This document shows, in pieces, positions 1 to 48,048 of a DNA stretch of 64,000 bases; positions within the stretch are counted from its first letter, which is position 1; each line of letters begins with the position of its first letter. A program made the position numbers and the translations under genes. Origin of the DNA: Liolophura sinensis (Eukaryota; Mollusca; Polyplacophora; Chitonida; Chitonidae); contig NC_088302.1 of assembly GCF_032854445.1 (NCBI RefSeq), positions 12,953,338 to 13,017,337 of the forward strand. Reading direction: 5' to 3'. The notes beneath the pieces were generated by a model. That model had not been told where the DNA came from. It saw only the letters and a list, made by a program, of their open reading frames with translations, and did no database searches.

Positions 1-1743
1 ATACAGGTAACACAGAGGGGCCACTGACAGGGAGAAAAAACACACACTACAGGGTGACAATGTCATCATACAGGTAACACAGAGGGGCCACTGACAGGGA
101 GGAAAAACACACACTACAGAGTGACAATGTCATCATACAGGTAACACAGAAGGGCCACTGACAGGGAGAAAAAACACACACTACAGAGTGACAATGTCAT
201 CATACAGGTAACACAGAAGGGCCACTGACAGGGAGAAAAAACACACACTACAGAGTGACAATGTCATCATACAAGTAACACAGAGGGGCTACTGACAGGG
301 AGAAAAAACACACGCTACAGGGTGACAATGTCATCATACAGGTAACACAGAGGGGCCACTGACAGGGAGAAAAAACACACACTACAGAGTGACAATGTCA
401 TCATACAGGTAACACAGAAGGGCCACTGACAGGGAGAAAAAACACACACTACAGAGTGACAATGTCATCATACAAGTAACACAGAGGGGCTACTGACAGG
501 GAGAAAAAACACACGCTACAGGGTGACAATGTCATCATACAGGTAACACAGAGGGGCCACTGACAGGGAGAAAAAACACACGCTACAGAGTGACAATGTC
601 ATCATACAGGTAACACAGAGGGGCCACTGACAGGGGGAAAAAACACATGCCACAGGGCGACAATGTCATCATACAGGTAACACAGAGGGGCCACTGACAG
701 GGAGAAAAAACACACGCTACAGGGTGACAATGTCATCATACAGGTAACACAGGGGGGCCACTGACAGGGAGAAAAAACACATGCTACAGACTGACAATGT
801 CATCATACAGGTAACACAGAGGGGCCACTGACATGGAGAAAAAACACACACTACAGGGTGACAATGTCATCATACAGGTAACACAGAGGGGCCACTGACA
901 GGGAGGAAAAACACACGCTACAGGGTGACAATGTCATCATACAGGTAACACAGAGGGGCCACTGACAGGGGGAAAAAACACATGCCACAGGGCGACAATG
1001 TCATCATACAGGTAACACAGAGGGGCCACTGACAGGGAGAAAAAACACATGCTACAGGGTGACAATGTCATCATACAAGTAACACAGAGGGGCCACTGAC
1101 AGGGAGAAAAAACACACGCTACAGGGTGACAATGTCATCATACAGGTAACACAGAGGGGCCACTGACAGGGAGAAAAAACACACGCTACAGAGTGACAAT
1201 GTCATCATACAGGTAACACAGAGGGGCCACTGACAGGGGGAAAAAACACATGCCACAGGGCGACAATGTCATCATACAGGTAACACAGAGGGGCCACTGA
1301 CAGGGAGAAAAAACACACGCTACAGGGTGACAATGTCATCATACAGGTAACACAGAGGGGCCACTGAAAGGGAGAAAAAAACACACACTACAGAGTGACA
1401 ATGTCATCATACAGATAACAAAGAAGGGCCACTCACAGGGAGAAAAACACACACTACAGGGTGACATTGTCATCATACAGGTAACACAGGGAGGCCACTA
1501 ACAGGGAGAAAAAACACACGCTACAGGGTTATAATGTCATCATACTTGTAACACAGAGGGGCCACTGACAGGGAGAAAAAACACATGGTACAGGGTGATA
1601 ATGTCATGATACAGGTAACACAGAAGGGCCACTGACAGAGAAAAAACACACTGTACAGGGTTACAATGTCATCATACTGGTAACACAGAGGCGACACTGA
1701 CAGAGAGAAAAAACACATGGTACAGGGTGACAATGTCATAATA
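1..1743 (-). repeat. 67-nt minisatellite carrying a splice acceptor and the start of TBC1D19 exon 13 (about 26 copies)
   Basis: Near-perfect 67-nt units fill the left end of the window and probably continue past it. Read on minus, each unit is a pyrimidine tract and acceptor (TTTTTTCTCCCTGTCAG) followed by TGGCCCCTCTGTGTTACCTG and about 20 more bases. Joined to the single base left over from exon 12, this reads V-APLCYLYDDIVTL, which matches the family sequence that follows FHGFxMY (VAPLCFLYHE in human TBC1D19). So the unit is the intron 12 / exon 13 border, and the true exon 13 lies left of the window. Most units hit TAG right after VTL. Copies between 1380 and 1743 are more diverged. Confidence 0.9.
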
Positions 1744-1811
1744 CAGGTTTTGACAATGTACATGTTGTTACTGTAGAAATACATTTAAGATTCAATATGA
1801 TAAAATAAATA

Positions 1812-2083
1812 TTTATTTATTTATTTGATTGGTGTTTTATGCCGTACTCAAGAATATTTCACTTATACGACGGCGGCCAGCATTATGGTGGGTGGAAACT
1901 GGGCAGAACCCGAGGGAAACCCACAACCATCCGCAGGTTGCTGGTAAGACCTTCCCACTTACGGCCGGAGAGGAAGCCAGCATGAGTTGGACTTGAACTC
2001 ACAGCGACCGCATTGGTGAGAGGCTCCTGGGTCATTACGCTGTGCTACCATGCTAACCAACTGAGAGATGGAGGCCCCCTAAA
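1812..2083 (-). mobile_element. SINE copy, near full length
   Basis: Tail to head on plus, from (ATTT)n GATTGGTGTTTTATGCCGTA to CAACTGAGAGATGGAGGCCC. Flanks share TAAAATAAATAT, a likely target duplication. Lies in TBC1D19 intron 12 beside the acceptor array. Confidence 0.9.
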
Positions 2084-3151: not shown

Positions 3152-3680
3152 TTGTTGTAACTTAATACCATACACTCTAAAGCCTGGGATGGTAAAACCT
3201 ACATTAGAAGATTAGATCACAGTGTTTTCCTGCACTACTGTAACTTACCTTGCATTTACAAACCCATGGAATGGAATAACCCTGTTAGGAACGTAAATCA
3301 AATGTTTACCTGTAGGCCCCTACTGTTGTAACTTACTATACAATGCCAGTCATGGATGAGAAAAGCCATGTAATGTTGTAACTTACCTTGCATTTACAAA
3401 CCCATGGAAGGAATAACCCCGCTAGGAATGTAAATCACAGTGTTTCCCTGTACTGTTGTAACTTACATTATGATGCAAGTCATGGATGGGAAAAGCCATG
3501 TACTGTTGTAACTTACCATACACAGCAATCCCATGGAAAAGAATAACCCATATAAAGAAGGGTAGATCACACTGTTATTCTATACTGTTGTAACTTACCA
3601 TACATAGCAATCCCATGGAAAAGAATAACCCATATAAAGAAGGGTAGATCACACTGTTATTCTGTACTGTTGTAACTTAC
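3152..3680 (-). repeat. Degraded tandem copies of the end of TBC1D19 exon 12 with its splice donor
   Basis: Downstream of the true donor at 3679-3680 the motif TACTGTTGTAACTTACCATA (plus strand; on minus TATG|GTAAGTTACAACAG) recurs at about 3583, 3500, 3450, 3372, 3321, 3240 and 3152. The two nearest copies also keep CCCATGGAAAAGAATAA and GGGTAGATCAC, the complement of the exon coding VIYPPNGVIPFHGFAMY. Long copies are about 82 nt and alternate with shorter ones of about 50 nt. Conservation falls with distance from the exon. Confidence 0.85.
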
Positions 3681-6600
3681 CATACATAGCAAACCCATGG
3701 AAAGGAATAACTCCATTAGGAGGGTAGATCACAGCATATTCTTGCATGCCCAACTTGCCCCGGATATAAGATTTAGCTGGTGTAGCACTGTTACGAGCAA
3801 AATGCTCCAAAACCTTGGTGTCTCGGGAAAAAGGCAACAGCACCTGGAAATTGATGACAAAAATCTTTCCATTGATGAAATTTACATTCAAATTTAACCT
3901 TATCATTTATATTAATTAACACCAGAAGGAGAGGTTTTGCAAAAACTGCCTTTTTAAGTTTTTCTGCAAATGCTTTTCCTGTAAATTACTTGCTTGCACA
4001 TTCCCATGCACGCAGAAAAATTTGAACTGAACTGATTGATTTGTGTTTAATGCCATACCCAAGAATATTTCACTTGCATGTACCATATGTGACGGTGATC
4101 AATTTCATGGCTAGAGGATACTGGCATATACCCTAATAAACCACAAGTGCCACACAAACTTTCCCAAATGTGACACAGATTTTCACCAGCAGACTGATCG
4201 AGCCCAAAGTGTATGCGATATTGGTGGACAGCAACAAACTTTATGTAACACTGCCTAAAAATCCAGACATGTGCATTTTCATACACATATTGAACAGAAA
4301 GTCGTAACTACATGTATTCAGAATAAAGGAAACCATGAAATATGCAATTTTAACTTCAGCACAAAAAGGGCTGGTTTTCAACCTTGATCCGAAGCTCCAT
4401 ACAGTAAAGTTCAACACAAAATTTTATCAAAAAATCAGACAACATTTGGAGCCGTTACACATATAAGTGTAGCATGCATTCAACCACCAATCAGAATCAG
4501 CAGAATCATTAATTATACAAAACTTCAGAAATGAAAAGTCTGGTTTTCAAACTCGATCTGAGGGTCAACAACATGAGCCTGCACATGTTTGAAGTAAATA
4601 TTGCACAGGAACCAATGGCCAATCAAACTGTTTAAAGGAAATCACTGAATATGCACAACTTAGGCATGGATATGGCTGCTTTTCAAACTTAAGCTGATAA
4701 ATACACAATATGAGACCACATACAAAACACTATTTCGTGCAGTTATTGCACAGAAACAAACCAGCAAAATTAGAATAATTGTATTCATTAAATATGGAAA
4801 ACTTTCATGCATGCATTAGTCAGGCTAGTATTCAAGCTTGACCTGAGGGTTCACAAACTCCATGTATCCTGGGAGGTTCATGAGTTTTATATTAAAGCAA
4901 ACTGGGCCCACAAAAACATATGCTGTACATCCATGGACATTTACTCTACCTGATACAGAAAATCTTCGAAAACAAAATAATGATCATCGTTGGTAGCTGT
5001 AAGCTTCACATCCTGAAATAAACAGAAATCATGTGAACTAATTCTGTGATTCAGTGATTAGTTAGTTTGGGGTATTGTATTAGAGAATTCTCCTGATTTT
5101 ATGTGAAATTCCCTGATATAATATGGAATAAATTCATACATCAGAATTACATGAAAACTCAAATTACATGACTAAAGGTAAATCAATAAGGACTTATTAC
5201 TGTAATGATGACTGTCAGACAGTTTGAAGTACTGACTTTACGCGATAATGTTTATTTAAAGTTAAACAACAATTGGTACATATGAACAACATACAAAGAT
5301 AGGAACAAATAGGCTACAAGGAGAATCTAAAGTAATCAGCATGTACTGCTCAAAATGGACCTCTCTGAATGTCAATGCAGAACACGCAAATAGGTCAGCC
5401 GTGTGTCCCACATATTGGTTACAAATGTTTAATCTTTCTGTGGCATCATGATGTCACAACTGTTTTCACCGGAAATGGAATGAAAAGTAACGAGAAAGGG
5501 TGTTGGATCCATCCATAGACCCTTTTTCCTTCCAGTTACAGCCATCTTCATGTGTACCTATTGATAGACAGCCTTTTCTTGAATGTCATACTCATGAGTC
5601 TTTGACTTACACAATGCCAGTCTGTTTTTTATAGAACAGACTGTTCAGGGTAAAAACCATAGGCAAGTTTCTAACAAACTTTCCCACATGTGGCGCACAG
5701 CCTTGCACTCCATACTTGTGGAAAACTTCAAGCATGTCAATCACAGATTGTTATCAAGGTCCCACAAAAAGTGAGAGGCGGAGGGCTTCACTCTAGAATG
5801 ACTAACCTCATGGGCTTCAGCAGCTGCCAAGAGGGTACAGTGATCCCTAATAAACCCATCATCTTTCCTTCCACTTACCATGTACCATGTTCCACACCCC
5901 AAATTATTCAATACAACAGCATATTCTACAGAAATCAATTTGCTTGTTGTCCAGTAACTGTGACTGTGGCTATTTAATAATTCTGTAACTGACCTTATAC
6001 AAGAGGTTGTCCACAAGGAGGTCGTGGTGCATCACATAGGCCTTCAGTTGTTCATAGTAGAGCTGATCCTGAAAATCAATAAAAAGAGATAGGTAAAACA
6101 AAATTACACGCTTTTCAACAGAATACATACCATATTAACTAAACATAGGTAAATAGGTTAAAATTAGCCTTCAGTTCTACATAATGCAGCATATAACATC
6201 CCAAATGTCAACATCTGTCACCTCCAACACTAACATCTGTGTCCACTTTCACATCTGTCACCTCCAACACTAACATCTGTGTCCACTAACCACATCTGTC
6301 ACCTCAACTGCTGACATCTGTCTCCAATTACCACATCTGTCATCTCCACCCTAGGACCTGTCTCCCTTCACACCACATGTCAGCTCCAACCCCAACATAT
6401 GTCTCCACTTACAACATCTGTCACCTCCAACCCCAACATATGTCTCCACTTACAACATCTGTCACCTCCACGCCAGCAACTGTCTCCCCTCATCACATGT
6501 CACCTTCAACACGCCTCCACTAACCACATCTGTCACCTCCACCCCTAACATCTGTCTCCACCTACCACATCTGTCACCTCCACTCCTATCATCTACCTCC

Positions 6601-9600
6601 ACTTACCACATCTGTCACCTCCACCCCTAACATCTGCCTCCACAAGACTGCTCTTAGACTGACTGGACATCCTTTCTTTGAGAACTCCTGGGACAGCGGA
6701 CTGTGTTTGTTTATGACCACTGGAAATAAAAATACATCATTTATACAATATTTTTTAGCGCCTTAAGGTTAACCTTCATTAACGTTGGCCTGAAACGTAA
6801 ATAATTTACACTGATTTCTGTAGTATTTTTTTATTTCTCAGAACACAATTTACTGAAATGCTGGAATTCTGTATTGGGATAAATGAACAAACTCAATAAC
6901 ACTGTGGTGATCTGATATATCACCAGGTGTTTCTTTTTTTTTGTTTTACTTTTCAACTTTAAACTGCCAAATCACTGCTGGATTAGCTTTTTGCAATCCA
7001 GTACAAAGTACAGGGCACAACCATAACAATTATCTAAGTAGATGGATTTGAGTACAAACTGCCTGTTAATCATGATAACGGTAACCTGCCAATGGCAATG
7101 GTACTCCAAGTAAGTATTCATCATAGGCATTAACCACCACAATGTTCAAAAGAGTATCAGCATTTGAACGCAATCCACTTTTTAAGAAAAAATCTTCACA
7201 ATATTAAACAGTAACGTTTCCTTTTTTGAGCTATTCACTTCTCATTACATTCCTATACATGACCATAAATTTCTTCCATGACTAACTTATCCATTTCTGC
7301 TGATCCTAAGAGTTCTAGTGATTTTAAAAACGTGTTGTGAGGTTTGCTTAGAATGTGGGATATTCTACTGGAAAAATTTCAGCACCAAAAATCATATTTT
7401 GTGACATTCATTTGCCTCTAGCAACACACTTTTGTGGGAGAAATTTTAGGTCATTTCATTATCTTGAACCGTTAACGTAAAATTATGGTTTTTAGGTCCA
7501 AGGGAGGTAGCTTGAATCCCTGACAAACTTAACAGAGTAGTCTCCCTTTTTACACCTGTTTATTGCTTATCCCAATACAGGGTAATCCAAAAATTCAAAA
7601 TCTTGTTCATTAAACTCATTTTGGGTGTTAATGTATAAAAAAGACGTAAATACGAAAAAAGCTAATGCCTCCATGCTTAAAATGTAATGAGGTAATGCAT
7701 GATCAGACCAAGGAAAGATATCATGAAAGTTACAGACTGGACACAGAGAATTGTGTAATATGTACGGACCTTTTTTGCCCAGCTTTGTCCTGTCCAGATC
7801 AAACAGCTCTGGGGGAATGTCCTGAGCATCATCTACACCTGTCTGACACTGGTTTATAGACATCTCACTGTACTGTAACCTCTGTGAGATAAGACAAGGG
7901 CAGGTTCTGATCAACCAATCAGATTTGGCCAGAGTGAAGATGTAGCAGATATACACACCACCTTTCAACCAATTCACCCATCATGGACGTTATCTGGCTT
8001 TTTGGAGCACCCATGCAAAATTCAATTCATTTAGTGTACAAATACACATGTAAACCAACAAACAATTTATCCTACAAGAAATATTCTGTGGTCGTATTTT
8101 TTCAGCTATGAAATAAATTTGCTGTTCATAACAACGCAGCATTTTAACACATTACTGATGAAAATTCCATTAAAAGACATTATTAGGGATAATGTTCATG
8201 GAGTTCAAAGGTGTAATATATCAGTGAGGGTTTATGAACAATTGGACCTTTTTTTTTCTGGAGAAAATGGCATTTGGAAATATTTTGGCATAATCATGGG
8301 TATTTGGGACCACCTCTTCATCATCTCTGTATGATCATGTTCTAAACAAGGATGCCATGTATGTCTAATAAATGTATTCCAGTGTAAATTTGTCCGAACC
8401 CATGCATTTAATCTGGATTTGGATTATATTGATGAATATATTGAAAATATAAATATGATCAATATTCATGTTCACCAAATTCTAGCTCAAATAATTTATT
8501 GTACATGTTTTACATCCTCATTTAGATCATTATTAAGCAACAATAAATATACCAAGAGGTGGTTCGAAACACACATCATATAAAAATTATTTTCAGATAT
8601 CTTTTTAATGTCTCAATCTCATTAAACAGAACAGAAAAACATATTTAAGGCCATATTTATGACAAACTCTTTCATCTGAACTCTATGTCAGTTTTATATT
8701 TTATAAAATATCCCTTATATTGGTGATTTAATTTTATGCCATACTCAAGAATAATTAACACTTGTATATTTCATAAGCCCAAACTGGTTAATAAATGAGA
8801 AATGTTCCAATATATGACACACAGCCTAAATTTAACACTGATAATGAAAAGTATTAAGATTATATATAGATTATATCTAGGGAAACAATCATACAGTGCC
8901 AAAGGAAACATTACTCACCAATTCATGAATGCTTTTGACTTTCAAAGGAATCTGGATTATACCCCATAAAGTTCCAGCCCTAAAATGTGAAACGATAAAA
9001 TGCAAATCCTAGAAGCTGACTGATTTAACTGTGCTACTTACCTGTTATACTTAAACTTCGTCCTTTGACAAAAGATTTTAAAACAGCCCTTCAAACCAGC
9101 TACCTATCCTTTACCGCCACTTATAAAGTCAATTACCTCCCCTTATTTTGCCTCAAATAACAGTAAAAGCTGAGCTGACTGAACCCATACGTGCTGTAAT
9201 GAGGGGTACAAATTCTGTCTGGGACTCCTTAACCAAGCTTGTACATTTCAGATTCAAATCTTGGTCTTTTGGCCCTACAAACGATAGGGGACTCCTTGGC
9301 CTAGTAGTTAGTGTGCTAACACAGTGAAATGACCCAGAATCTTCTCACCAATGCAGCCCCTCTGAGTTCGAGTACATGTACATGGGTAGGTTTACCAGCA
9401 ACCATAAGTGAAATATTGACTATGGCAATCAAGTAAACAAATTAAATATGAGCTAAAATATTCTTCAAATCTGCATTCTCTGGTAGCATACTTATATGTG
9501 TATCAAACCTCATAAATCCCGTGGGCCTTCGGGGGTCAGTTGGTTAGCGCGCTTGTCCAACGTAATGACCCAGAAGCTTCTCACTGTGAGAGCAGTCACT

Positions 9601-12600
9601 GTGAGTTCAAGTCCCGCTCATACTGGCTTCCTCTCCAGCCATGCGTGGGAAGGTCTGGCAGCAACCTGCAGATGGTCGTGTGTTCCCCCCAGGCTCTGCC
9701 CGGTTTCCACCCACCAACATGCTGGCCGCTGTCGGACAAGTGAAATATTCTTGAGTACGGCGTAAAACACCAATCAAATAAATAAATAAATAAATCATAA
9801 ATCCTATAAGAACAGTGTATGCTTTGCACAAGGTCAGTGTCTGATTCGGTTATGTACAATTTTGATCTTTTTCCCCACTCGTCTAACCTGACTATGTCCT
9901 GGTTGTTGTTGTAGTTGTTGTTTTGTAAATTTGCTATCACCTCCAGGAAGTCTTTGGGTGCATACACTGGTCGAATCTGACTCAAATCTGAAAAGAAAAT
10001 AACAATATTGTCGGCTAGATTTCACACCTTGATACATATCAATGGACGAAATAGTAATACTAAACTGGGTACTACATTTACACAGTAACCCAGCAAGATT
10101 GTGTATGCATTAAATATTATCTATTTCCTTTACAACTTTACAACACTAGCTCATTTAATATTATTTCCAATACAGCATGAGCCCATGGCTTGAATTTTAA
10201 TTAACATCACATTTAACACTTTGTCTGGTGCATCACAACAATGTTATGAGAGGTAACTCTCCATGCCAACACAGTTATCATGCTGCATCACTAAAACATC
10301 TCTTCCCAGTTATCAGGCATAATGCCCGTGAAAAAGAATACATAATATGCTGCTGGAGAAGTTGTTTCCCAGCAGGCTTATTTCAGCACTTCACCCACAT
10401 AGTATACTCAATAAAAATTTGAATGCACAAAACAATTTTATATTGGTTTCTCTCAGTATCAAATAACATGTTAACTGAACAATTAGGGTAAGTAATAATT
10501 ATCAATTGTGGCTTCAATTTCCAGCAGATTTTCAGATTTTAGGGCAATAATTCAAGAGCTATGGCAGTGGGAAAAGAGAGTGGTCGGTAATCAGAGTTCA
10601 CGCTCTTTGTGATGCTAACGGTGGATACTCTTAATACTGAATGTTGTAGAGTTAACACGCCATTTAATACTGAGAGTAAAATGCTTCTTACGTTTTTTTT
10701 TGTTTTTTTTTTTTGTTGAGTATAGTACATGCTGCCTAACAGACTAATAATGTTCAAGTGGATAACGTGTGTTGTTTATGGAATAGTACAAGATAACAAC
10801 ATGAGCAGTTCTCCAGCATACCTCTTGAAACTGACATACCTGGGGGAGTTGTGCCCAGCTCACTCCAGCGACTTGCCAGGTCTTTACGGTCTTTCTCTGA
10901 TCTCTACAAAATTTATTCTAACATTAGGAGCAGGGATCATTTCATGACAACAAGCAGAAACTCTCTCGTGACTACATGCTGATTCTCTCATAACAGAGAT
11001 GTCAACAGGCAGATTCTCTCATGTCAACAGGCAGATTCTCTCATGTCAACAGGCAGATTCTCTCATGACAACAGGCAGATTCTCTCATGGCAACAAGCAG
11101 ACACTCTCACGTCAACAGGCAGATTCTCTCATGTCAACAGGCAGATTCTCTCATTTCAACAGGCAAATTCTCATCTCAACAGGCAGATTCTCTCATGACA
11201 ACAAGCAGATTCTCTCATGTCAACAGGCAGATTCTCTCATGTCAACAGGCAGATTCTCTCATGGCAACAAGCAGACACTCTCACGTCAACAGGCAGATTC
11301 TCTCATGTCAACAGGCAGATTCTCTCATGGCAACAAGCAGACACTCTCACATCAGCAGGCAGATTCTCTCATGTCAACAGGCAGATTCTCTCATTTCAAC
11401 AGGCAAATTCTCATCTCAACAGGCAGATTCTCTCATGACAACAAGCAGATTCTCTCATGACAACAAGCAGATTCTCTCATGACAACAAGCAGATTTTCTC
11501 ATGAAAACAGGCAGATTCTCCCAAGGCAACAGGCAGATTCTCTTATGTCAAAAGGCAGATTCTCTCACAAAAACAGGCAGATTCTCTCATCCCAAGTGGC
11601 AGATTTTCTCATGTCAACTGGCAGATTCTTTCAAGTCAACAGGCAGTCTCTCGTCACAGAGCAGACACTCCCATATTAACACCCAAAACTATCTCAAGTC
11701 AACAAACATGCTCTCCAAAGTAAATAGGTTTCTCATGAATTCATGTAAGCAGGCAGATTTTCTCAAAAATGTAAACAGACATGACTCATATCAACAGGCA
11801 GACTCTATTACATCGAAAATGTGTAGTCTATTACTTCCAAAACATGGCAGTGGCCTGGTGGTTAATGTGCTAGCACAGCATAATCAGACCTCTCACCAAT
11901 GTCATTGCTGTGAGCCTTCTCCACTTGTACACAGGAAGGTCTGCCAGTAACCAGCAGATGGTTGTGGGCTTACGCCTTATTTGTGCCTGGTTTCCTCTCA
12001 CCATAATGCTGGCCAATGTAACACACATGAAATATTCTTCAGTTCAGCATAAATCACCTATAATATAATTAAATAAATGAATCAAAATGAGACATACCTT
12101 TTTAGCCAATGGGACACTGAGCTCTGTGCACATACTGTTTAGACTCTTCAAAATCCTCTTCTCCCAGTTCATCTGCAAAATTCAAGCAAATTCCAAAGGG
12201 ATGCTCTCTATGCTTACAATTTCTTTTATTGTCCAAAATTATTAATTTTGTTACTTACATTTGTTAATTGCATTTTACTTTTTAAATGATAAACGTATGA
12301 GCATAAATTAAGTATAAGTTACATTTATAATAGACAAATCAAACTCAAACTGTTGTCAAGAAACAACAGTCTGAAATCCATACAATTACCCACTCTGGTA
12401 CATACATTTGTACAACCAAACCATGAAATTCTTAACTGCAAAATAAGAAAGATATAGCCAGTGATTCTCTATTTGTGAATCTGCCATCTCTTACTTGTGC
12501 TTTTCTTAGATGGGCCAAAGGTTCTTTCTGTGCTTCCAAATCCGGAGGTATGTCTGATGACATCACACTGTTTTGTTTCTGCATTGCATTGTAAACAACA

Positions 12601-18067: not shown

Positions 18068-18369
18068 TTGAGACTATTCGAACATGAAATAGATGTTTTG
18101 ATAACGGATAATATGTCAGTGAATCAAAAGAAATTGAGAAAGGTTTATATAGGGATTGTGATATGAAGTACCTTTTGGTTCATGGATATATGTACATATA
18201 AGTAGATCAGTGAACAAAATTGAATCAGTAACTTTTAACATGAAGAGTAAACTTTGCAAACGAACCTGTACAAGGTGTTTAAAAACTGGAAAAAAAAGAG
18301 ACTTTTAGGAAGAGAGACACCAAATGAACGGTGAAGTCATGTGAATGGAAATGAGCCATTTCAGAAACG

Positions 18370-36500: not shown

Positions 36501-39500
36501 TGGGTGTAGAGAAATAATTTGCACAGTTTTTGCATCTTTGGAGGCATCATTTTCATAATAATTGTATGCATAAATTCCACAGAAAAAAGTGATTTAGAGG
36601 TCGAACAGGTGAAAGATTTACAGTAATATTACATGACCTTTATTTTAGGGTAAATAATGTAATTCCAGGCTTCAAAGTGAACCTACCTGCATTCCCTCAG
36701 GGTATCCACCTGTCTAGTGCTGATTCGGATCTTCGGTATCCTATAGTCCCACGGGATCACCAACACTTTACCTGCACGGCCGGGATTTTTCTGTCCAGCC
36801 TGAAGAATGAACAGAGAAAGTGCCAGATTACAAGCCTCCTCCCTTCAGTTATATTAACTATTACACCACTATCAAGAATGAATGAATGAATGATTATGGT
36901 CACATTGGTGACATTTAAGCCATATCGTGGTGACACCTTAATCAAGAATGAATGAATGATTATGGCCACATTGGTGACATTTCAGCCGTGCTGTGTTGAC
37001 ACCATAAACGAGAATGAATGAATGACTATGGCAACTTTGGTGATATTTCAGCCATATCGTGTTGACACCATAATCAAGAATGAATGAATGATTATGGCCA
37101 CATTGGTGACATTTCAGCCGTATCATGGTGACACCATGAACGAGAAAGAATAAATGACAATGGCAACATTGGTGATATTTCAGCCGTATTGTGGTGACAC
37201 CATAATCAAGAATGAATGAACAGCAACCTGTGGATGGTCATGGGTTTCCCCCGGGCTCTGCCCGGTTTCCACCCACCATAATACTGGCCGCCCTTGTATA
37301 AGTGAAATATTCTTGAGTAAGGCGTAAAACACCAATCAAATAAATAAATAAATACATACACTAACCTTTGACCTTACATCCTGTTTTGATGTATCTCTAC
37401 TTCGTTACAACTCTCCGCTCTTGCTCGGAGACAATTCTGCCTACCATGCTAACTTGGTAAAAAATATTTGGGGGACATATTTGCGACCATATTAAATCTC
37501 GTGTTGTAATGAGGTGTGATATAATGAGGTAAAGGTGTATTGTGCTACCCTGATTCCTCAACCTTTTCCCATATGAAACAGCAATTTATGCACATTTGTA
37601 ATTAGATTTTAGACACAAAACTTATTTATTAAAACTTATTTATCAGTCTACACTGAATAATGCCTTCAGAATATGCTTGAATAAACACCTTGCAACACAT
37701 GAAAAGGTATGAAATTTCTAAAACCATGATTACTGTTCACTAAAAGGGAAGCTTCTGAAACAATATTTGTGGAATTCAGACACAAATTTCCTAAATTTCA
37801 TGATCCTACCACACGTGAAGCTCCAGCGACTGTTTAAACACACCTCATCCTGACTGAAGGAGACTACATAATCCCTCCAGTTCCTCTGTAGGATTCCCAC
37901 AACACGCCCCGTGGGCATCACATCTCCCATGTCTTCCTCTTCCTCTGGAGAGGTACCTGGGAAAGCCAGAACAAAAGAGAAGGTGTAGAGGACATACAAT
38001 GAAGGAAAACTATGGGGAGCATGGGAGAAAGAGTTATGTAAGAGAGGGGGACTGGAGTTGGATGAGGTGGGGCTTGGGTCGGATGAGAGCTCGTAAACAG
38101 TTTCAGTGTCTACATCTATGTAATAGTTTTACTTTGAGGATAATGTGTGAATTTTTTTAAACAGTTCTGCATAATTCAGACAATACTTCAAATGGGCTGT
38201 TATCTACAAATCAGATTAAAATAGAGATAATATGTACATATAATAAATATATACATGCATTTGTTCTTGGGCTATGACCATTTCTGATAATGGTTCATAA
38301 ATCCTCTAAAGTTAAACTGAACTAAACTTACTTGTATTTTCATACAAATTGATCACAAATTCTCTTTTCACAATGGTATACATATAAATGAGGACAATGT
38401 CTAACCAAACTTTTCTACTTGCATAAACTGGTGTCACTGTTCAATTTTTACGCACACCAGCTGTTAGGCATTAAAGCTGAATATAGCTTCAAATCTCTCT
38501 TTAATAATACCTAGAAAAGCTTGATAATAGCCAAATAAAAATGCCTTCAGTAATGGTAACAAATCAAGTGCAAATAACCCGGAAAACACAAGCTTGAGGC
38601 AGGAAGGGATAATAAAATAGTTCTTGTGTCTTTTAGAGCTGGATGGAGATAAAGGCTGGTTTTAAAGGCTAGTTTAACAAGGGGATCGCCAGAGCAAGGA
38701 GAAGCTGGTGTCAGTTATAAACAACTTTTAAGAACCCGACCTAACATTACCTGATACATTAGACAGCTGTTCTGGAAAAGATAAAATCATCGGAGAGTGT
38801 TTAGATGGCAAACAAAAGACTTCTTTACAAAAGCGAAATTCTACAAAAATTGTATTTCCAGATTCTTCCAAGTCAAAGAAAGAGAAACAAGTAAATTTGA
38901 CCTTGAAGCTGTATAGCCTACAAATACAAGGTTAAGCAAACAATAACAAAGAAAGAAGAAAGAATTGCTGATATTTTATAAAAAAAAAAGGCAGTCTAGC
39001 CAGAGAAACCTGCATTCTGAGTTATTTGTTAACTTGATTTGAGCTATAGGCCTTACTCAAGAAAATTTCATTTTTACGATGGCTGCCAGGATTATGGGGG
39101 GAGGAAACCCAGATATTAGGTGACAAATCACAACATCTATGGTTAGAGACTGTAGGAGTGTACCTAAAATGGTAATTTTGTAGCATTAGGTCTTTCAATA
39201 TGATTTTGAAATTAAAGCTGATTAAATATATCGAAGAAATGAAGTCAATGGTGACATCATGAGACACCTGTATCCCCAGCCCCACACGTTAATAACCCAT
39301 CAACAACTATGGTAAATGACGAAAAGTTTCACCCGTCGAATCCTGTTAATTTTCACATGGGCTGAGTTAGCAGCAAGATGACAGAAGAGGGTGATTAGCC
39401 CCTGCCCAATTCATTATCCTGCATGGCAGCTATGGTCACCAATCTGCGCAACATGGGGTCGAGCCACTGACAACGAGGCATGTAGATCTCTCGACTAGTC

Positions 39501-42500
39501 CATGTGCATTTCTAATCATACCCATGAATTAAACCAAAGAAAGTATCAAGTCAGGCCATGAATATTACAAACCTATAAAGTGCAAACCATGTCTAGATTC
39601 ATGGCCATGCCACATGTATTTCAGGTACAAATGGATTTCACTGAGAAATATTTGTCACCAGCCTCCCGTATAATTTGAAGGAAGTATGTCACTCAACACA
39701 CACATTCTGTTTTGTTACAATCAGAACTGTCCACCTACTGCAGAAGAGTTACCTTTCGGTTCCCGCATTTTGAAATTGGGAACCTCCCATGTAACACAGA
39801 AAACCTACTCTAAGCAAGGTTTGTGAAAACTACCACGATTATCAACTTTAAGGCAGCACTGTGTGAGTGTCCGACATATCGGGAGCCAGACAGGATTTGT
39901 CGGTGTTGTTGACATATTAGGTGTTTGCACAACACTGACTGACCATATAGCAAAATAAAGTGCATTTTTTCTGATTACGGGTATGCGAACTCCTGCCATC
40001 AATGGTTATAATAGACATGTGGAGATTTCAATCCCTGCTGATTATAAGTTGTCACTTTAAAGGTCGTGTGTCATCACCTTCTGCTAGTTTACAAGTATAT
40101 AAAGCATTCACGGGGTGCAAAGTTCTATTTATTGTTCTGTACATGAAGAGCTCTGCATTTTGACAGATATTTGACATGCCACTCCACATGTATAAAGGTA
40201 CTCAGTGGTCACACTCAATCTCGTCATAAAATGGCGCTCATAAAACAATCAAGGTTCACCTTTTGTGAAGTAAACCTTTATGTACTAAATTCATTATGAA
40301 TAAAACTGAGAAAAACATGAACTGCTGGCGGCAGTAGCACAAACTGACTGCTCAATGAAGTGTGAGCTTGTTTATTACATTTGGGAACTGTCCATATAAT
40401 TCCCTGACCACCGCCAGTGGCTTCACGCGGCACCCAGTCGGTAAGAGCCACAATCAGCGTAATGAATCACAGAATATACTTTCCAAGTCTATGGGCAAAA
40501 CTTAAGGTCATTTTACTGTACAGGTGTGCTCTAATCAACCATTCCTCATCTTTATATATGCAGGTAAAAACTGAGGGAGAGGCAGGTGGATTACACTTGG
40601 GCAGTCTTCTAATTCTTCCCCTCCAAATATCCCACCTCACACCTGGATCTACCTACCCTCTTCATTCTCTTTAATGGCTAATGACTTTCCTTTCCACTGT
40701 GGGCGGGGCAATAACTCCACGACAACGGAGTCTCCATGGATAGCACGGTTTCTTGTCCCCATTCCTGGTATCAATATATCAGAGTCCATATGTGAAGCCT
40801 CACTTGCCGATTGTGCACTACAAAAGATATTTTCAAAAAAAAAAATGAACAACGATATGTACAATACATGTATCATTTGATAACACCACAATCACTATCA
40901 GACTATCAGAATATCAGAAATTGTGTGTGATGTCTGCTTTTCAGTACAGACTATAGAGGCACTAGAAATCATGTTATGAATTCTGAGTTATTCTTTACTT
41001 GGGGAAAACTGAAAATTACATTAGAATGATAACAGAAATGCTGTCTAATGCATAATATACTAATCTATGCAAATCAAATGCAATGTGAAATGTATCACCA
41101 GGATTGTTTATTTATTTATTTTGCTTATTTGACTGGTGTTTTATGTGGTACTCAAGAATATTACACTTATAAGACAGCAGCCAGCATTGTGGTGGGAGGA
41201 AACCATGATGTTATTTGTTTGATTGGTGTCTTACACCATACTCAACAATATTTCACTTATACGAGGGCAACCAGCATTATGATGGGATGAAACCATGATC
41301 TTTTAACTATATATATATGTAGATAACCACCATTATTCTAAGTATCTTATGGGGATAGCTTTGTAAATACTGATCTGAATGTCATGAAAACTAGCAAAGC
41401 AGTGTGTGACATACATCTGGTAACATGTTACCCAAAACTAGTACAAACTAAAACAAGATCAACCCTTTAACCCTTTATTCCTGAAATACACAGTGATCAA
41501 TTTTACCTTGTTCTTTTGATGAAGGCCTCCTGCATTGGATTGTGTTTGTTGACGTGGAGGTTACCCTGAACAAACCGACCTGCCTTAATGCCAGCCTCCA
41601 GCACAGCCAAGGGGAGATAACCACTGTACTCATCTTCGGCTGAAAGACAAGCAATATTTTCGTCAAAGCAAAATTTCTTTAACTTCATACAGTTCAAAAA
41701 TTTATAACTGATACCACTGGAAAAGTTGGAAACACAAATTTCTTTCAATGTTTCTTTATTAACCATTCCTATATGCAGGATCCTTTTGTTTTGTACTGCT
41801 CATAAATACAAGTATTTTTATGGTTGTATCCAATACGAATATCATGGCATCATATCTTTAAACTAACTGAAATGGTTACGAGTTACAAGTACACTAACCT
41901 TTACTGACAGACTCATGGTTACGAGTTACAAGTACACTAACCTTTACTGACAGAAGTTATAAGTACACAAACCTTTTTGACAGACTCATGGTTACGAGTT
42001 ATAAGTACACAAACCTTTTTGACAGACTCATGGTTACGGGTTACAAGTACACTAACATTTTTGACAGACTCACAGTTACGAGTTACAAGTACACTAACCT
42101 TTACTGACAGGCCCACGGTTACGAGTTACAAGTAAACTAACCTTTACTGACAGAAGTTACAAGTACACTAACGTTTACTGACAGATTCATGGTTACGAGT
42201 TACAAGTCCACTAACCTTTACTGACAGACTCATGCTTACGAGTTATAAGTACACTAATCTTTACTGGCAGACTCATGGTTACGAGTTACAAGTACACTAA
42301 CCTTTACTGACAGAAGTTACAAGTACACTAACGTTTACTGACAGATTCATGGTTACGAGTTACAAGTCCACTAACCTTTACTGACAGACTCATGCTTACG
42401 AGTTATAAGTACACTAATCTTTACTGGCAGACTCATGGTTACGAGTTACAAGTACACTAACCTTTACTGACAGAAGTTACAAGTACACTAACGTTTACTG

Positions 42501-45500
42501 ACAGATTCATGGTTACGAGTTACAAGTCCACTAACCTTTACTGACAGACTCATGCTTACGAGTTATAAGTACACTAATCTTTACTGGCAGACTCATGGTT
42601 ACGAGTTACAAGTACACTAACCTTTACTGACAGAAGTTACAAGTACACTAACCTTTACTGACAGATTCATGGTTATGAGTTACAAGTCCACTAACCTTTA
42701 CTGACAGACTCATGGTTACAAGTTATAAGTACACAAACCTTTCTGACACTCATGGTCACAAGTACAGTAACCTTTACTGACAGACTCATGGTTACGAGTT
42801 ACAAGTCCACTAACCTTTACTGACAGACTCATGGTTACGAGTTATAAGTACACAAACCTTTCTGACACTCATGGTCACAAGTACAGTAACCTTTACTGAC
42901 AGACTCATGGTTACGAGTTACAAGTCCACTAACCTTTACTGACAGACTCATGGTTACGAGTTATAAGTACACTAACCTTTACTGACAGACTCATGGTTAC
43001 GAGTTACAAGTACACTAACCCTTTTGAAGGACTCATGGTTATGAGTTACAAGTACACTAACCTTTACTGACAGACTCATGGTTATGAGATACAAGTCCAC
43101 TAACCTTTTTGGCGGACTCATGGTTATGAGTTACAAGTACACTAACCTTTACTGACAGACTCATGGTTATGAGATACAAGTCCACTAACCTTTACTGACA
43201 GACTCCTCTTTAGCGGCTGTCAGGGCCTCAAACAAGTCATCAATGCCAGACAGATGAGACCAGAATGTGTCCAGATAACCCTTCATGTCCATCACAAAAA
43301 CATTGATCTTTTTGTTCTCATGTTCCTCCAGAAACTGAAAATTATAAAATGTTTACAAATCACAAATTATTTATTACATCCACAAAAAGGGGTTAGGTTT
43401 CTAACTGTTGTGTCTTTAGCTGTCACTCTTTTTAGATTAATTTTAAAAAGATAGTTTGCAACATATTACCACTGGCATTTCTGAAAAGTTAGTAATATAT
43501 GTACATTCATGTATATATGTCATTAAATTAGCTAAACCAGACTTTAACCTTTACTATACAAATGCCTTCAAAACCCACTTATCGTACCACACGACCTTGA
43601 GAGAATATCAAGCTCTGAGTACATGTGCTGTGAATGGCATCAGTAATTTCACAGAAAATATATAAACAATGTTTGCTCAGAAAACAAAGCTCAAGTGGTA
43701 AGATCCAACTGAAAGGATGACAGACCTGATTTCCCAGTTCAGTGAAGAGAATATAAACCCTTTACATTTCATCTGGCACCTGCAGGTCTGGGACATGCGA
43801 GGCTCTGGAAGGTCATTAGCAGACTCAAAACCATACATGTACATACCATTTGTTCAGTGTCCTAATAAATTGTCTAGATTAAAGAGAGGAATTGTCAAAT
43901 TCCCACGTGTATTTATCTACCAATCACTGTAAAGGTATGCTCAAAAGTTATGAATGATGCACGGTATGACGTGGCCTCTGTAAATACATTACCACGTACC
44001 TCAACACCCATCCCTCAAAAACCTCATTTGGGCTTCAATTAAAGTGTTCAAAGTATCTTGACAAACTCCTCCGTTGAACGTGAGAGAGACAAAATATGCA
44101 CTGTGTATGTGGATTACAAATACCAAGACCTCATGCACAACACCTGCTACAGGTACTGGTTTTAGAAATTACTACCAGATAACAAACTCACCACAAAAAG
44201 TCATGATTAAAATATTATAGAAATTCACAGCTTGTATGTATCCCGCTGATAATATATTTTTGATAAGCCTTTTCAAATCATTGGCCGGCTTACAGATACA
44301 TAAAATGACTAATGAATGAACGATTATCTACTGTGAAAAAACTTTTGAACCAGGTTTTAGTTTTAATGTGGCAACAAAAGCTTTTCATCAGGGCCTGATC
44401 AGAAGGAGCCATTGCCAGATGCCTCTGGTCACATAGAGTCCAAAGAATGGACACGAACTATTAACATTGGTATTCTTAATTAAATTCCAAGCCAAGATTT
44501 CCGCCTGTTTGGGAAAACACACATTACACAATACAGAATTCAACACCGAGTGCACACCAGCCAGTAGGCTATAAAACCTCCACAACTGCCAAAGGCTGGT
44601 AGCCTGGGAACATGTCTGTCTGTTTCTGATGTAGGCCTACATGCATAAAGTATGTCACACCACACATCAAGGCCCACATTATGGGCTCAGGCATATCGTG
44701 AAATAAGTCAGTAGTTGAGTATATATGTCAAACTCTGCCAAACTTTGATTTTCTTTAAGAAAGGTTTGTATTGAGTTGTAATGTGGTTGTCGTTTCTCCA
44801 GAATTATTTCTAGCATGCGTTCGTATAGTGTTTTACTGCCAGCCCGTTTACACAACAACGTTTAAAATAAACTTAATTTCAGATAGTCTTCGTGTTAGTT
44901 GTAAATGCCATTAGTTGTTATGAATGACAAATAATTACCTTTCAAATTTCGAGAACCACGTGTTTTGACAACATGTCATGTATATCCAAAGAGGGATTCT
45001 ATTAGCTCACGTTCAAATGAACACAGCTAATCAATACATATGTTACAAATGCGATGTACCCACGTGTTGCAAGCAAAAATTCCAAAAACGTCCTTTTTTC
45101 TGCAATTTTGTAGTTTATATAGGTTTGCTAATGTGTGTAGAGTTTTAAATGGCATTGGCATGATTGAAAAACAGCACTCTAATCACACCCGGCAGTGTCT
45201 CATCTTGCAAATCTGGTGAGGCTCACTGAGGCATGACGGAGATGTACACTTAGGTCACTGACTGACTACCAGTAATCACCTACTCATCACAGAGAGTGTA
45301 TGACTTAAGATAACTGCGACTGCAAGGTATACATTTTCTAAAAATGCATCTGAAATTACTGAGAATGTACAGTAACAAAAATCAACAATTCTAACCGATG
45401 AATCCGGTTCAAACTCATTGGCTCACCTCTCTATTTTCAGTAACCATGACGATTGGAATTTTCCCAGCCAGGTGATCATAGTACCAAACAGAAGATTGAT

Positions 45501-48048
45501 AAGTGCTTCTGTAAAGAGAAGAAAAAAAAGACTATCCTTTGTAGTAAAAACCACAAACAAAATTATCCACAGGACACTGTACAGTACACAGTTTACACTT
45601 ACGCCAAGGTGTTAATATATAGCATAACATTAGCACTTACAGCCTTCTTGTTGGGGACTACATCAACTCTGAAAAGATTTTTCCATGTTCCTCTCTAAAC
45701 CTGGGCAGCCACTCTCTGGCCTTCATTCTAAAATGGCCAAACAGTTTTGAATTGCTTACTGATGGTCAGTGTATTTCTGAACATAAAAACTTGCTCATAT
45801 TTCTCTACACACACTGGTTCATTTCTGCGTATGTCTATTTTTGTCTGAATAAAACTATTCTTTACTTCTTTCTCACTAACCTGGTCAGCCAGTCTTGAAG
45901 CGCCTCTCCAGCCTGACGTTCACAGTAAGAAAATTTCTGGAATTCATTGTTAAACAGAACAGAGCCTTTCCGCCCATTCTTAATAAGAGACTTTAATCTG
46001 TTGTGAAGCCTTCTTCCTCCTTCATGTTGCACCTACAATATAAACAGATTCTTTGTAATTAAATCTTTATTTTATAAACAATATACACTTTGCCTATGAT
46101 TTAAATGCAAAACATTCTATTTAACAAGATTTTAAAACATATTTATATATCTTGATTCATTATTTCATAATGGAGGCCAACATTATGGTGGGTGAAAACT
46201 GGGCAGAGCCTGGGGGAAACCCACGGTCATCTTCAGGTTGCGGCAGAGGACCGGAACTCACAATGACCGCATTCGTGAGAGGTTCTTGGGTCATTGCTCT
46301 GTCCTCGCGTCATAACCTCATAGGTCACGGAGACCACAATAAATACGCTGAAAACCCTTTTTTACATTGGACGGTGTGGTCATAGCTATGTAAATTCAAC
46401 ATGTCAGAGAAACATGTATCAACAAGGGTTTTTCATTTTCTTTGTAGAATAAAACTGATCTTCAAGTTTCAAAAATACAGATTTAAAAGTCACACTCACA
46501 TAATCTGTCACTGACTGTGTAAATACAATTCCTGTCAACTCTGTCACTTCCAAAATCTCCAGGTAATCTGTAGTCACCTGAGCATCGGGAATCAGGTAAT
46601 GGGTCACTTCCTTGGCCAAACCTATACAGAGACAATAACGACATACTGGATTAGAGCATCTACCCTGAAATTAAAAAGACCAGGGTCTTTTTTTTTAACC
46701 AGTAAATGTGGTGATCTTGACATTATCTCACTTGGAAAAAGAACAAAGGCGACTTTCACAAAACTTTGTAAACTTTTTTCTTGTTAATTATCAAAGCACA
46801 GAGTGATGTGAATTATAGGAATAGCTGCACAAAGAAAAATTCCAGTTCATACACATGAACTTTCCCACAGGCAACTCCAGTTCACAGTCAGCATACTGTG
46901 GCTAGGTGGGGTGTCACATCTAATGTCTCCAGAATGATGTTCGAATTATTTGATTTCTTTTGCTGTTTTATGCCCTATTCAAGAATATTTCATTTATACA
47001 GTCAGGATTATGCTGGGAGGACCCCAGGCCAAGAAACAACCATCCTTAGGTTGCTGGAAGATCATCCCAAGGCATCATGGAGAGGAATCCAGCATGAACT
47101 CACAGTGACCGCACTGGTGAGAGGCTTCCCTGCGGTACTTTTTCTTACCTGTATGTGTGCCATAGCAAAGTGAGACTTGGAAACTTGCCAGACAGAAGGG
47201 AATATAACTGGAGTACATTTTCTTGTCTGTATGTGTACCCTGATTAAGTGAGACTTGGCAGCCTGTTAGACATGAGGGAATACGACTGGAGTACTTTTTC
47301 CTACCTGTATGTGTACCCAGGTTAAGTGAGACTTGGCAACCTGTTAGACATGAGGGAATACGACTGGAGTACTTTTTCTTACCTGTATATGTACCCAGGT
47401 TAAGTGAGACTTGGCAGCCTGTTAGACATGAGGGAATACGACTGGAGTACTTTTTCCTACCTGTATATGTACCTAGGTTAAGTGAGACTTGGCAACCTGT
47501 TAGACATGAGGGAATACGACTGGAGTACTTTTTCTTACCTGTATATGTACCCAGGTTAAGTGAGACTTGGCAGCCTGTTAGACATGAGGGAATACGACTG
47601 GAGTACATTTTCTTGTCTGTATGTGTACCCTGATTAAGTGAGACTTGGCAGCCTGTTAGACATGAGGGAATACGACTGGAGTACTTTTTCTTACCTGTAT
47701 ATGTACCCAGGTTAAGTGAGACTTGGCAGCCTGTTAGACATGAGGGAATACGACTGGAGTACTTTTTCTTACCTGTATATGTACCCAGGTTAAGCGGGAC
47801 TTGGCAGCCTGTTAGACATGAGGGAATATGACTTTTCCCTACCTGAATGTATACCTCGGTTAAGTGGGAATATGACTGGAATACTTTTTCCTACCTGTAT
47901 GTGTACCCTGGTTAAGTGGAGTTTCGCAGCCTGCCAGACAGAGTGGACTGTGACAAGGGATGTCTTCTCTCAGGTACAGCTCTCTCACCACCCTTATAGA
48001 GTGCCCCTGGGAATTCCTCACTCTCAACTGTCTCTCACGCCGCTCCAT
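21524..48048 (-). CDS. DIS3L: DIS3-like exonuclease 1, complete, 23 exons, 1,039 residues
   Basis: Processive 3'-5' exoribonuclease of the cytoplasmic RNA exosome. Exons: 48048-47895, 46621-46500, 46032-45881, 45508-45427, 43334-43190, 41639-41507, 40817-40657, 37956-37844, 36799-36687, 35978-35825, 34912-34764, 34500-34309, 31649-31547, 30882-30788, 29805-29649, 28809-28714, 28096-27944, 27184-27035, 26509-26405, 25854-25721, 24016-23845, 23090-22962, 21679-21524. Every phase agrees; total 3,120 nt including TAA. N-terminus: [18 protein letters not shown], the cysteine-rich motif before the PIN-like domain (exons 2-4). Cold-shock domains: exons 6-10 ([54 protein letters not shown]). RNB nuclease: exons 11-19, with [12 protein letters not shown] giving catalytic Asp479, 485, 487 and 488, all present, plus [15 protein letters not shown] and [16 protein letters not shown]1-like domain: exons 20-22 ([16 protein letters not shown]). 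Human DIS3L is about 1,054 residues. The start is MERRERQ, equivalent to human MLQKREK. DIS3L is preferred to DIS3 or DIS3L2 for its N- and C-termini. Confidence 0.96.
21985..22961 (-). repeat. 36-nt minisatellite of consensus 5' splice sites opening DIS3L intron 22 (about 27 copies)
   Basis: The array begins exactly at the true donor of exon 22 (GTTAAG|GTAAGATCC, GT at 22961-22960) and runs about 970 nt into the intron. Units read on minus GTAAGATACACAGGACAGCT followed by GTGCTGATGCTACAAG, so each junction between units gives ACAAG|GTAAGAT, a near-perfect match to U1 snRNA. About 19 copies keep this; about 7 have GGGTAGATCC instead. Because 36 is divisible by 3, long meaningless reading frames run through both strands. 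Confidence 0.93.
24238..24368 (-). mobile_element. SINE fragment
   Basis: CAGCATTATGGTGGGTGG to GACTTGAACTCATTTTGATC, minus orientation. DIS3L intron 20. Confidence 0.75.
24479..25467 (+). mobile_element. TTAA-flanked inverted-repeat element (MITE), copy 2, with an internal insert
   Basis: Perfect TTAA on both sides (24475-24478 and 25468-25471) and terminal repeats AGTGAACATAAAGTC / GACTTTATGTTCACT. Twice as long as copy 1; the extra roughly 500 nt lies in the middle (about 24660-25220). DIS3L intron 20. Confidence 0.85.
27268..27462 (+). mobile_element. SINE fragment
   Basis: CAATGACCCAGAGGCCTCTC to GAGTACACCGTAAAAAACAC. DIS3L intron 17, opposite to the gene. Confidence 0.8.
27600..27745 (-). 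mobile_element. SINE fragment
   Basis: GCATTATGGTGGGAGGAAACC to GACTTGAACTCACACAGC (tail missing). DIS3L intron 17, near the previous copy but in opposite orientation. Confidence 0.75.
28463..28676. mobile_element. Palindromic-end repeat family, copy in DIS3L intron 16
   Basis: Starts CTAATTCCTCAACAGTTTCG and ends CATGCGAAAAGGTTGAAGAA, which are complementary. The interior shares TTCAGGGCTTCACAAA and AATAATGCCTTCAGAAT-type text with copies at 35598 and 37549, and a partial end at about 26290-26350. Non-autonomous DNA element by structure. Confidence 0.75.
29275..29455. mobile_element. Two SINE tail fragments head to head
   Basis: A minus tail ((ATTT)n GATTGGTGTTTTTAGC, 29275-29320) is joined to a plus 3' end (AATTCTTGAGTGTGGCATTA ... 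AATAAATAAATAAATAAAC, to 29455). DIS3L intron 15. Confidence 0.7.
32038..33567 (-). mobile_element. Complete Tc1-like DNA transposon, about 1.53 kb
   Basis: Terminal inverted repeats CTATCCAAAAAAAGAAACGC (left) and its complement with one extra base in the A/T run (right) bracket the transposase. TA dinucleotides flank both sides (32036-32037 and 33568-33569), the Tc1/mariner target duplication. Near-identical ends and an open transposase argue for recent insertion. The host position is intron 12 of DIS3L, between exons at 34309-34500 and 31547-31649. Confidence 0.93.
32232..33239 (-). CDS. Tc1-like (DD34E) transposase, intact, 335 residues
   Basis: Uninterrupted transposase. The N-terminus holds paired helix-turn-helix DNA-binding regions ([19 protein letters not shown] at residues 21-39), then the GRPR motif at 56-59 that lies between the two binding subdomains in Tc1 proteins. 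The catalytic triad is complete: Asp149 in WFSDESRF, Asp237 in [11 protein letters not shown] and Glu272 in [14 protein letters not shown], with 34 residues between the second Asp and the Glu, the Tc1 spacing. Length is normal for the family. It lies inside terminal inverted repeats (32038-33567), so the copy looks complete and could still be active. It sits in DIS3L intron 12 on the same strand as DIS3L. Confidence 0.95.
   Translation of the reverse strand: MPRLDTVTRNIAIGRLQAGESQSSISRRLHVSQSTISRLTARYNNTGTKNDRRRSGRPRVTTAAQDRYIWVLHLRDRCATAESTAASIPGLRRISGQTVRNRLREHGLRARRPYVGIVLRPHHRANRLRWCNNVTAWNLRNWRRIWFSDESRFLLQRRDGRNRVYRRAHERYAPNCVRQVDRFGGGSVMMWAAISYTGRTNLVHVQGNLTAVRYRDTILQPHLLPVIDVQRELFQQDNARPHTARVTRDFLAENNVNVLPWPSRSPDLNPIEHLWDELDRRLRQRQPQPQTLQEQVACLQEEWQNIPQASIQRLIQSMTRRVRTVIRARGGYNRY
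33987..34263 (-). mobile_element. SINE copy, near full length
   Basis: (TTTA)n TGATTGGTGTTTTACGCTAT to TTGGTCACAGAGGCCCCCC. It ends 45 nt before the exon 12 donor of DIS3L (34308-34307). Confidence 0.88.
35598..35795. mobile_element. Palindromic-end repeat family, copy in DIS3L intron 10
   Basis: CTAATTCCTCAGCCTTTCCT to CTTGCAAACATGCGAAAACA, same interior order as the 28463 copy. Confidence 0.73.
36860..37225. repeat. 66-nt minisatellite in DIS3L intron 8
   Basis: Five to six units built on AATGAATGAATGATTATGGC and CACATTGGTGACATTTCAGC, starting about 60 nt upstream of the exon 9 acceptor. It runs directly into a SINE fragment at 37225. No exon or splice sequence is recognisable in the unit. 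Confidence 0.85.
37225..37358 (+). mobile_element. SINE 3' half
   Basis: CAGCAACCTGTGGATGGTCA to GTAAGGCGTAAAACACCAAT and (AAAT)n. Fused to the 66-nt minisatellite of DIS3L intron 8. Confidence 0.88.
37549..37715. mobile_element. Palindromic-end repeat family, copy in DIS3L intron 8
   Basis: CTGATTCCTCAACCTTTTCC to CAACACATGAAAAGGTATGA, with TACACTGAATAATGCCTTCA inside. Confidence 0.73.
37957..40656. other. DIS3L intron 7, otherwise featureless
   Basis: A 2.7 kb intron. Apart from a SINE fragment near 39030 I recognise no gene, array or element. Confidence 0.5.
39030..39110 (-). mobile_element. SINE 3' fragment, diverged
   Basis: CTTACTCAAGAAAATTTCAT and GATGGCTGCCAGGATTATGG match the 3' half. 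DIS3L intron 7. Confidence 0.65.
41105..41298 (-). mobile_element. Two SINE 3' halves in tandem
   Basis: GACTGGTGTTTTATGTGGTA ... GGTGGGAGGAAACCATGATG is followed by GATTGGTGTCTTACACCATA ... GATGGGATGAAACCATGATC, both minus and both cut at the same body position, so this is probably a local duplication. DIS3L intron 6. Confidence 0.78.
41883..43189 (-). repeat. ~43-nt minisatellite of the DIS3L exon 5 end plus donor (about 30 copies)
   Basis: The exon 5 end GAGTCTGTCAGTAAAG|GTTAGTG (minus; true GT at 43189-43188) is repeated about 30 times through 1.3 kb of intron 5. Each unit carries this exon tail and donor followed by about 20 nt of intron (TACTTGTAACTCGTAACCAT). A higher-order repeat of exactly 160 nt is visible: CAGAAGTTAC recurs at 42151, 42311, 42471 and 42631. 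Confidence 0.93.
43335..45426. other. DIS3L intron 4, no feature recognised
   Basis: 2.1 kb of AT-rich intron. Short reading frames here show no family features. Confidence 0.5.
46160..46335 (-). mobile_element. SINE copy lacking the tail
   Basis: GGCCAACATTATGGTGGGTG to AACCTCATAGGTCACGGAGA. DIS3L intron 2. Confidence 0.75.
46950..47130 (-). mobile_element. SINE fragment
   Basis: TGCCCTATTCAAGAATATTTC to CACAGTGACCGCACTGGTGA. It abuts the distal end of the DIS3L intron 1 exon-edge array. Confidence 0.75.
47140..47894 (-). repeat. 78-nt minisatellite of the DIS3L exon 1 end plus donor (about 10 copies), open in frame
   Basis: Exon 1 ends [16 protein letters not shown] with donor ACAG|GTAGG at 47894-47893. 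The following intron repeats this end about ten times; each unit encodes [19 protein letters not shown] and keeps ACAG|GTAAG, a stronger donor than the true one. The unit length of 78 keeps the same frame, so reading through the intron stays open for several units (KKYSS links them). The copies carry the last two cysteines of the N-terminal cysteine motif. Confidence 0.92.

Follow-up and report, generated by a model that had tools for sequence, protein, structure and literature searches.

Why should the minisatellites of one short stretch of a chiton genome lie so often across the edges of exons? The window analyzed here is a stretch of 64,000 nucleotides (G000:C8:12953338-13017337) from the assembly of Liolophura sinensis, which comprises 609 Mb in 632 contigs. 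An earlier note, made from the sequence of this window, had claimed that six tandem arrays sit at exon edges of TBC1D19 and DIS3L and that this is due either to a mutational process starting at exon edges or to use of the copies by splicing. The available text of the genome report gives the species as L. japonica and describes 632 scaffolds assembled from PacBio HiFi reads with a mean length of 8.3 kb (PMC11068029); the name has since been corrected from L. japonica to L. sinensis (PMC12441733).

Exon models were built with a spliced aligner, which yields GT-AG introns by construction, using the human DIS3L and TBC1D19 proteins as guides. On the minus strand, 23 exons of DIS3L were aligned (one spurious 12-bp exon was removed) and 12 exons of TBC1D19 were aligned in the window; across all models, tiny or weak exons produced by the aligner were removed by hand, and the ends of four exons were fixed manually (DIS3L exon 1, 7956 and 14218 in myosin A, and 14063 in myosin E). 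Pfam domains RNB, OB_Dis3, Rrp44_CSD1 and S1 confirmed the DIS3L model. The partial TBC1D19 model matched no Pfam domain at E 0.01, and we take this gene to be TBC1D19 on the basis of the human guide sequence and the earlier note.

TRF returned ten to eleven sizeable arrays in the window, in line with the ten originally counted. Arrays of fewer than 2.5 copies or with scores below 100 were set aside, save that one 1.9-copy DIS3L array below this filter was retained in the within-intron test described below. Two window arrays, at 18363-19206 and 56890-58501, lie outside the gene models and were not counted; the latter consists of two adjoining arrays with periods of 89 bp and 45/52 bp and a similar core around TGTTATCACAGTTTATAG. 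The window also holds a transposase-like open reading frame inside a DIS3L intron (32238-33245, minus strand; DDE_3 and HTH_Tnp_Tc3_2, Tc1/mariner type), an open reading frame at 52152-52649 (minus strand) whose similarity to the alkaline exonuclease family PF01771 stays below the cut-off (E 6e-4) and which is perhaps part of a mobile element, and an (AT)71 run at 60447-60588.

The combination of TRF calls and exon models bears out the central observation: a real exon border lies within six arrays, three in DIS3L and three in TBC1D19, which cover five donors and one acceptor, all on the minus strand. The acceptor array of TBC1D19 occupies positions 1-1748 and, as seen when a further 4 kb on the left side was included, extends left to about -3096, where it takes in the acceptor of the next exon (-3169 to -3060). 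Its 67-bp unit joins 30 bp of intron end to 37 bp of exon start and is present in 72 copies, not the 26 first reported. The remaining two TBC1D19 arrays cover the donors of exon 3681-3843 (array 3153-3733, unit 82/130 bp, 53 bp of it exonic) and of exon 6607-6719 (array 6210-6643, unit 41 bp, 37 bp exonic), both exons being placed by spliced alignment. In DIS3L, donor arrays are found at exon 22962-23090 (array 21989-22964, unit 36 bp with only three exon bases) and exon 43190-43334 (array 41872-43205, whose 43-bp unit has 31-bp variants and includes 16 bp of exon), again placed by spliced alignment, and at exon 1 (47895-48048), where the donor at 47894 was placed by eye in the sequence and the array runs from 47135 to 47934 with a 78-bp unit of which 39 bp are exonic. 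Thus, as claimed, part of the exon itself (16-53 bp) is included in the unit of five of the six arrays, the sixth carrying 3 bp. For comparison, arrays away from any border are present in the introns of both genes, also in minus orientation: one with a 22-bp unit at 10999-11646 in TBC1D19 and one with a 66-bp unit at 36880-37220 in DIS3L.

The claim that nearly every unit carries the splice site holds more closely for some of these arrays than for others. With copies aligned to the border, AG is intact in 72 of 72 copies of the TBC1D19 acceptor array and GT in 7/7 copies of the array at 3681 and 24/27 of that at 43190. In the 6607 array, whose unit is made of two similar halves, GT is intact at just 7 of 16 anchor places, and the 22962 array has 19 AGGTRAG motifs against a TRF copy number of 27; the exon 1 array of DIS3L has nine CAGGTARG motifs. 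The copies often equal the true site in strength and are mostly weaker than it in two arrays, those of TBC1D19 at 6607 and of myosin D (see below) at 3283. In the gene models the true splice site is predicted to be the exon-proximal copy, as at exon 3681-3843. All six arrays do run in coding orientation, as had been noted, but this adds no evidence because whatever derives from a border necessarily has that orientation.

Divergence at the array edges is mixed. Among 68 exact-period copies of the TBC1D19 acceptor array the first edge copies carry 14, 6 and 13 mismatches and the others 0-4, apart from one further copy with 14 mismatches near the exon end. At DIS3L exon 1 the two copies nearest the exon have diverged and are shortened, and the TRF call ends 61 bp before the border, which is reached only if these diverged first copies are counted.

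Where did the units come from? When 13 border-array units were compared with all loci analyzed, each matched its own locus, and a single stray 46-bp match was seen; a shared mobile element as their source is ruled out by this locus specificity. The exonic share of the 13 units ranges from 0.08 to 0.93 with a mean of 0.50 and is uniformly distributed (Kolmogorov–Smirnov p = 0.83, on values entered by hand). Units anchored at the splice site would start at GT; since the share is instead uniform, anchoring on the splice nucleotide is rejected and the process looks regional. Only three of the 13 unit lengths are divisible by three, so that in-frame use of the copies in mRNA, and with it the suggestion that splicing uses them, is unsupported by unit length.

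We also compared variation in the splice core with that in the rest of the unit in six of the 13 arrays. Mean core variation was lower in four (0.017 vs 0.049, 0.010 vs 0.044, 0.019 vs 0.083 and 0.000 vs 0.055) and higher in two. Ranked by variation against every circular window that the unit offers, the core stood at 33/67, 7/32, 20/66, 18/31 and 107/121, and at 2/43 in the sixth array; that is, its rank was unexceptional in four of six arrays and fairly low in one (7/32). Because copies were picked by their likeness around the border, which itself favors low core variation, this comparison speaks neither for nor against selection.

Border arrays are not confined to the two genes of the window. 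A genome search for myosins gave 81 matches, and seven gene regions (A to G) were aligned with the human MYH9 head; they are a subset of the match table, chosen before their arrays were viewed, one (on contig C8) partly for an odd open frame. The best solved-structure matches of one muscle-type myosin are 3i5f and the 1dfk group, which we take to be squid and scallop myosins. Seven border arrays were found in five of these seven independent genes: donor arrays in A, C, D (two) and E (two), and in B an acceptor array in which AG is intact in 48 of 51 copies. Myosins F and G had no border array. Excluded from these counts were two introns with unresolved exons, myosin A 3558-6695 and myosin E 7461-12322, the second of which has at least two arrays. 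Also excluded were the myosin E acceptor at 5389, the sequence preceding the first exon aligned in B, D, E and G (a single array, located in E) and that following the last exon aligned in A and F. Searching for TBC domains with Pfam yielded 33 matches, 30 of them with loci, and these loci contain two or three border arrays: acceptor arrays at two TBC exons of one gene (L010 and L011) and, read by eye, a donor array at a neighboring exon in locus L020. Among the 30 matched TBC exons themselves, no donor and two acceptors (those of the one gene) lie inside arrays. Border arrays thus occur in at least eight genes of this one genome, with unit lengths of 31-140 bp.

Arrays are also dense in these introns, which raises the possibility that many overlap a border by chance, with no bias in where they originate. 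The introns of the nine genes (those of the window and the seven myosins) come to 75 kb once collapsed and contain 33 arrays, against 10 arrays for nine random 10-kb stretches with about 84 kb of non-array DNA (conditional P 8e-5, for genes that were not randomly drawn). We used a null model in which each array is collapsed to one unit and seeds are placed randomly in the collapsed introns. In all nine genes 13 of 33 arrays lie at a border where 5.07 are expected (P = 0.0005); this count includes the DIS3L exon 1 array, whose start was shifted to the border by hand, and becomes 12/33 (P = 0.0017) if it is left unshifted. The window genes contribute 6/8 against 1.01 expected, and the independent myosin genes 7/25 against 4.27 (P = 0.11, both borders). 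The excess is confined to donors, with 11 observed and 2.57 expected in the nine genes and 6 against 2.19 in the myosins (P = 0.016, a small sample), while acceptor borders in the nine genes show none (2 observed, 2.51 expected).

Arrays also pile up just past donors. Starts lying on a donor or in the 100 bp that follow it number 17 against 6.63 expected in the nine genes and 12 against 5.65 in the myosins (P = 0.004), and by the same measure 4 of 30 TBC exons are affected against 0.88 expected (P = 0.012; exon ends estimated from profile matches and counts made by hand). In a stricter test, with seeds confined to their own intron, the result was 9/27 against 5.12 (P = 0.044). Array units are GC-richer than the remainder of the introns (0.436 vs 0.355, p 2.5e-8, in the nine gene models) and come near to the exons in this respect (0.465). 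A pure GC bias is rejected as the cause, since weighting seeds by GC lifts the donor expectation in the nine genes merely from 2.6 to 3.0-3.2, against 11 observed; in the myosins the weighted expectation is 2.6-2.8 against 6 (P 0.04-0.05). Border arrays have a GC skew of +0.21 (n = 10) and other arrays one of 0.00 (n = 20), which may merely reflect the donor motif. Taken together, these data partly support the proposed bias: it exists, on the donor side only, is smaller than the window alone suggests and is modest in independent genes. The window is an extreme local case of a moderate donor-side bias.

Two annotation-free approaches were applied beyond the gene models. In the random stretches none of the 10 arrays had a donor score of at least 4, compared with 0.12 in controls, and this motif test therefore gives no support outside genes; at the TBC loci the figure was 5/24 arrays, compared with 0.13 in controls. 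Genome-wide, we sought words occurring three times at 20-50 bp spacing. The donor word CAGGTAAG gave 588 + 660 = 1,248 matches, and the control words GAATGGAC, CAGGATAG and GATAGGAC gave 234 + 102 = 336, 50 + 130 = 180 and 87 + 253 = 340, a 3.7- to 6.9-fold difference in raw, unnormalized matches. Grouping the listed matches by eye gives, for the donor word, at least some 10 arrays within the initial 4.3 Mb of contig C1; for GAATGGAC, at least some 12 within the initial 90 Mb of C1; and for CAGGATAG, at least some 17 across C1 to C3. As single words outside arrays, in a mostly genic sample of about 301 kb, the donor word occurs 20 times and the controls 8, 7 and 1 times, so that triples per single occurrence, on these small counts, amount to 62 against 42, 26 and 340 (controls pooled, 54). 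The excess of donor-word triples vanishes or shrinks once scaled by word abundance, leaving no clear excess. At G000:C1:1375435-1381670, donor-word triples follow one another for about 6 kb.

We consider it somewhat probable that the border arrays are minisatellites of the kind called mirages in amphioxus, arising from untargeted small duplications that are denser past donors, are tolerated and are then expanded. What is observed in favor of this reading is their anatomy, the local derivation of the 13 tested units and the donor excess in nine gene models. Small local tandem duplications of about 30-140 bp would arise in and around introns, more commonly near the intron 5' end. A duplication across a border would be tolerated and the gene would survive, because the copy adjoining the remainder of the exon (the first donor or the last acceptor) completes a proper exon. 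Further copies would fall inside the intron, where splicing would presumably ignore them through exon definition and they would be neutral, and the array would grow and be homogenized by unequal exchange, as in other minisatellites. The donor-side excess would be mutational in origin, perhaps aided by the G-rich, transcribed DNA just past donors. More tentatively, and at distinctly lower confidence, intron DNA just past 5' splice sites may be a birthplace of minisatellites in animals as distant as chiton and amphioxus, through duplication linked to transcription or splicing in the first hundred bases.

Chance overlap of dense arrays with the borders of short introns is the rival to be taken most seriously, and we think it rather unlikely. 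The higher array density of introns than of random DNA, the non-significant total in the myosin genes (7 vs 4.3) and the acceptors at expectation all agree with it; it does not account for the donor excess, either overall or in the independent genes, nor for the pile-up past donors, which is seen in the genes of the window, in the myosins and at the TBC loci. That the arrays supply extra splice sites, used or kept as decoys in splicing regulation or as a buffer against loss of the true site, is improbable. The intact acceptors of TBC1D19 and myosin B, the many copies as strong as the true site, the lower mean core variation in four of six arrays and the core rank of 2/43 in one would fit such a role, but the core is elsewhere unexceptional or at most fairly low in rank among copies picked by likeness around the border, the unit lengths are not frame-neutral, and in the arrays at myosin D 3283 and TBC1D19 6607 the true site is stronger than most copies.

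A splicing-coupled process that begins right on the splice nucleotides, such as one that copies from lariat or pre-mRNA intermediates, would explain a donor-only excess and an array such as that at 22962, which begins three bases before GT; with exonic shares spread uniformly over the 13 units and acceptor arrays in existence, we regard it as very improbable. Of the original notion of a mutational process starting at exon edges, a donor-side excess of arrays is supported; neither an acceptor-side excess nor anchored units were seen. Least credible of all is wrong expansion or collapse of tandem copies by the assembler: such arrays are hard to assemble, yet the mean HiFi read of 8.3 kb given in the available text of the genome report exceeds the arrays described here (PMC11068029), the copies differ among themselves, and border arrays recur in separate genes.

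Border arrays of the mirage type, a peculiarity of a few genes in amphioxus, are now seen in a second phylum too, and their position bias has been measured. Should the excess at donors prove true of the whole genome, a mutational process linked to the 5' ends of introns would be indicated. The arrays are also natural test cases of how splicing selects one site among dozens of near-identical ones, as with the 72 acceptors before a single exon of TBC1D19. Our search of the open-licence literature, in the text available there, found no report of border arrays in molluscs, and the chiton comparative-genome paper (PMC12005716) does not use the word minisatellite in its main text.

The chiton arrays belong to a kind known from amphioxus, and their anatomy matches that of mirages; the earlier note had made this connection, now seen in another phylum, under the name mirsats, whereas the published name is mirages. 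As the available text describes them, the mirages of amphioxus Adh3 and of the globins BflGb6 and BflGb9 are minisatellite-like tandem copies of an intron-exon boundary, polymorphic in length, which according to the authors leave regular splicing undisturbed; they evolve in concert within a cluster, have diverged edge copies and show somatic instability (PMC3087553). Both systems consist of tandem boundary copies at donors or acceptors, many of which keep AG or GT, and unit sizes are comparable (10-160 bp in amphioxus, 31-140 bp in the chiton), whereas copy numbers reach 72 in the chiton against 6 and 3 in the BflGb6 haplotypes, and the chiton differs in being a mollusc, with arrays in at least eight genes and a measured donor-side excess (PMC3087553). 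In human segmental duplications, minisatellites with units averaging about 30 bp likewise lie in some cases at exon-intron boundaries, but there, in the text available, they change the splicing of young paralogs and give rise to novel introns in them (PMC2812944), while the chiton arrays sit at exons of conserved genes, with no coding change seen in the genome sequence. With the Rogers model of intron gain through tandem duplication of AGGT, as outlined in the available text, our reading shares the duplication of exon sequence together with its splice signals; in the chiton, however, the duplication spans a border that already exists, and a new intron is no part of the reading (PMC3087553).
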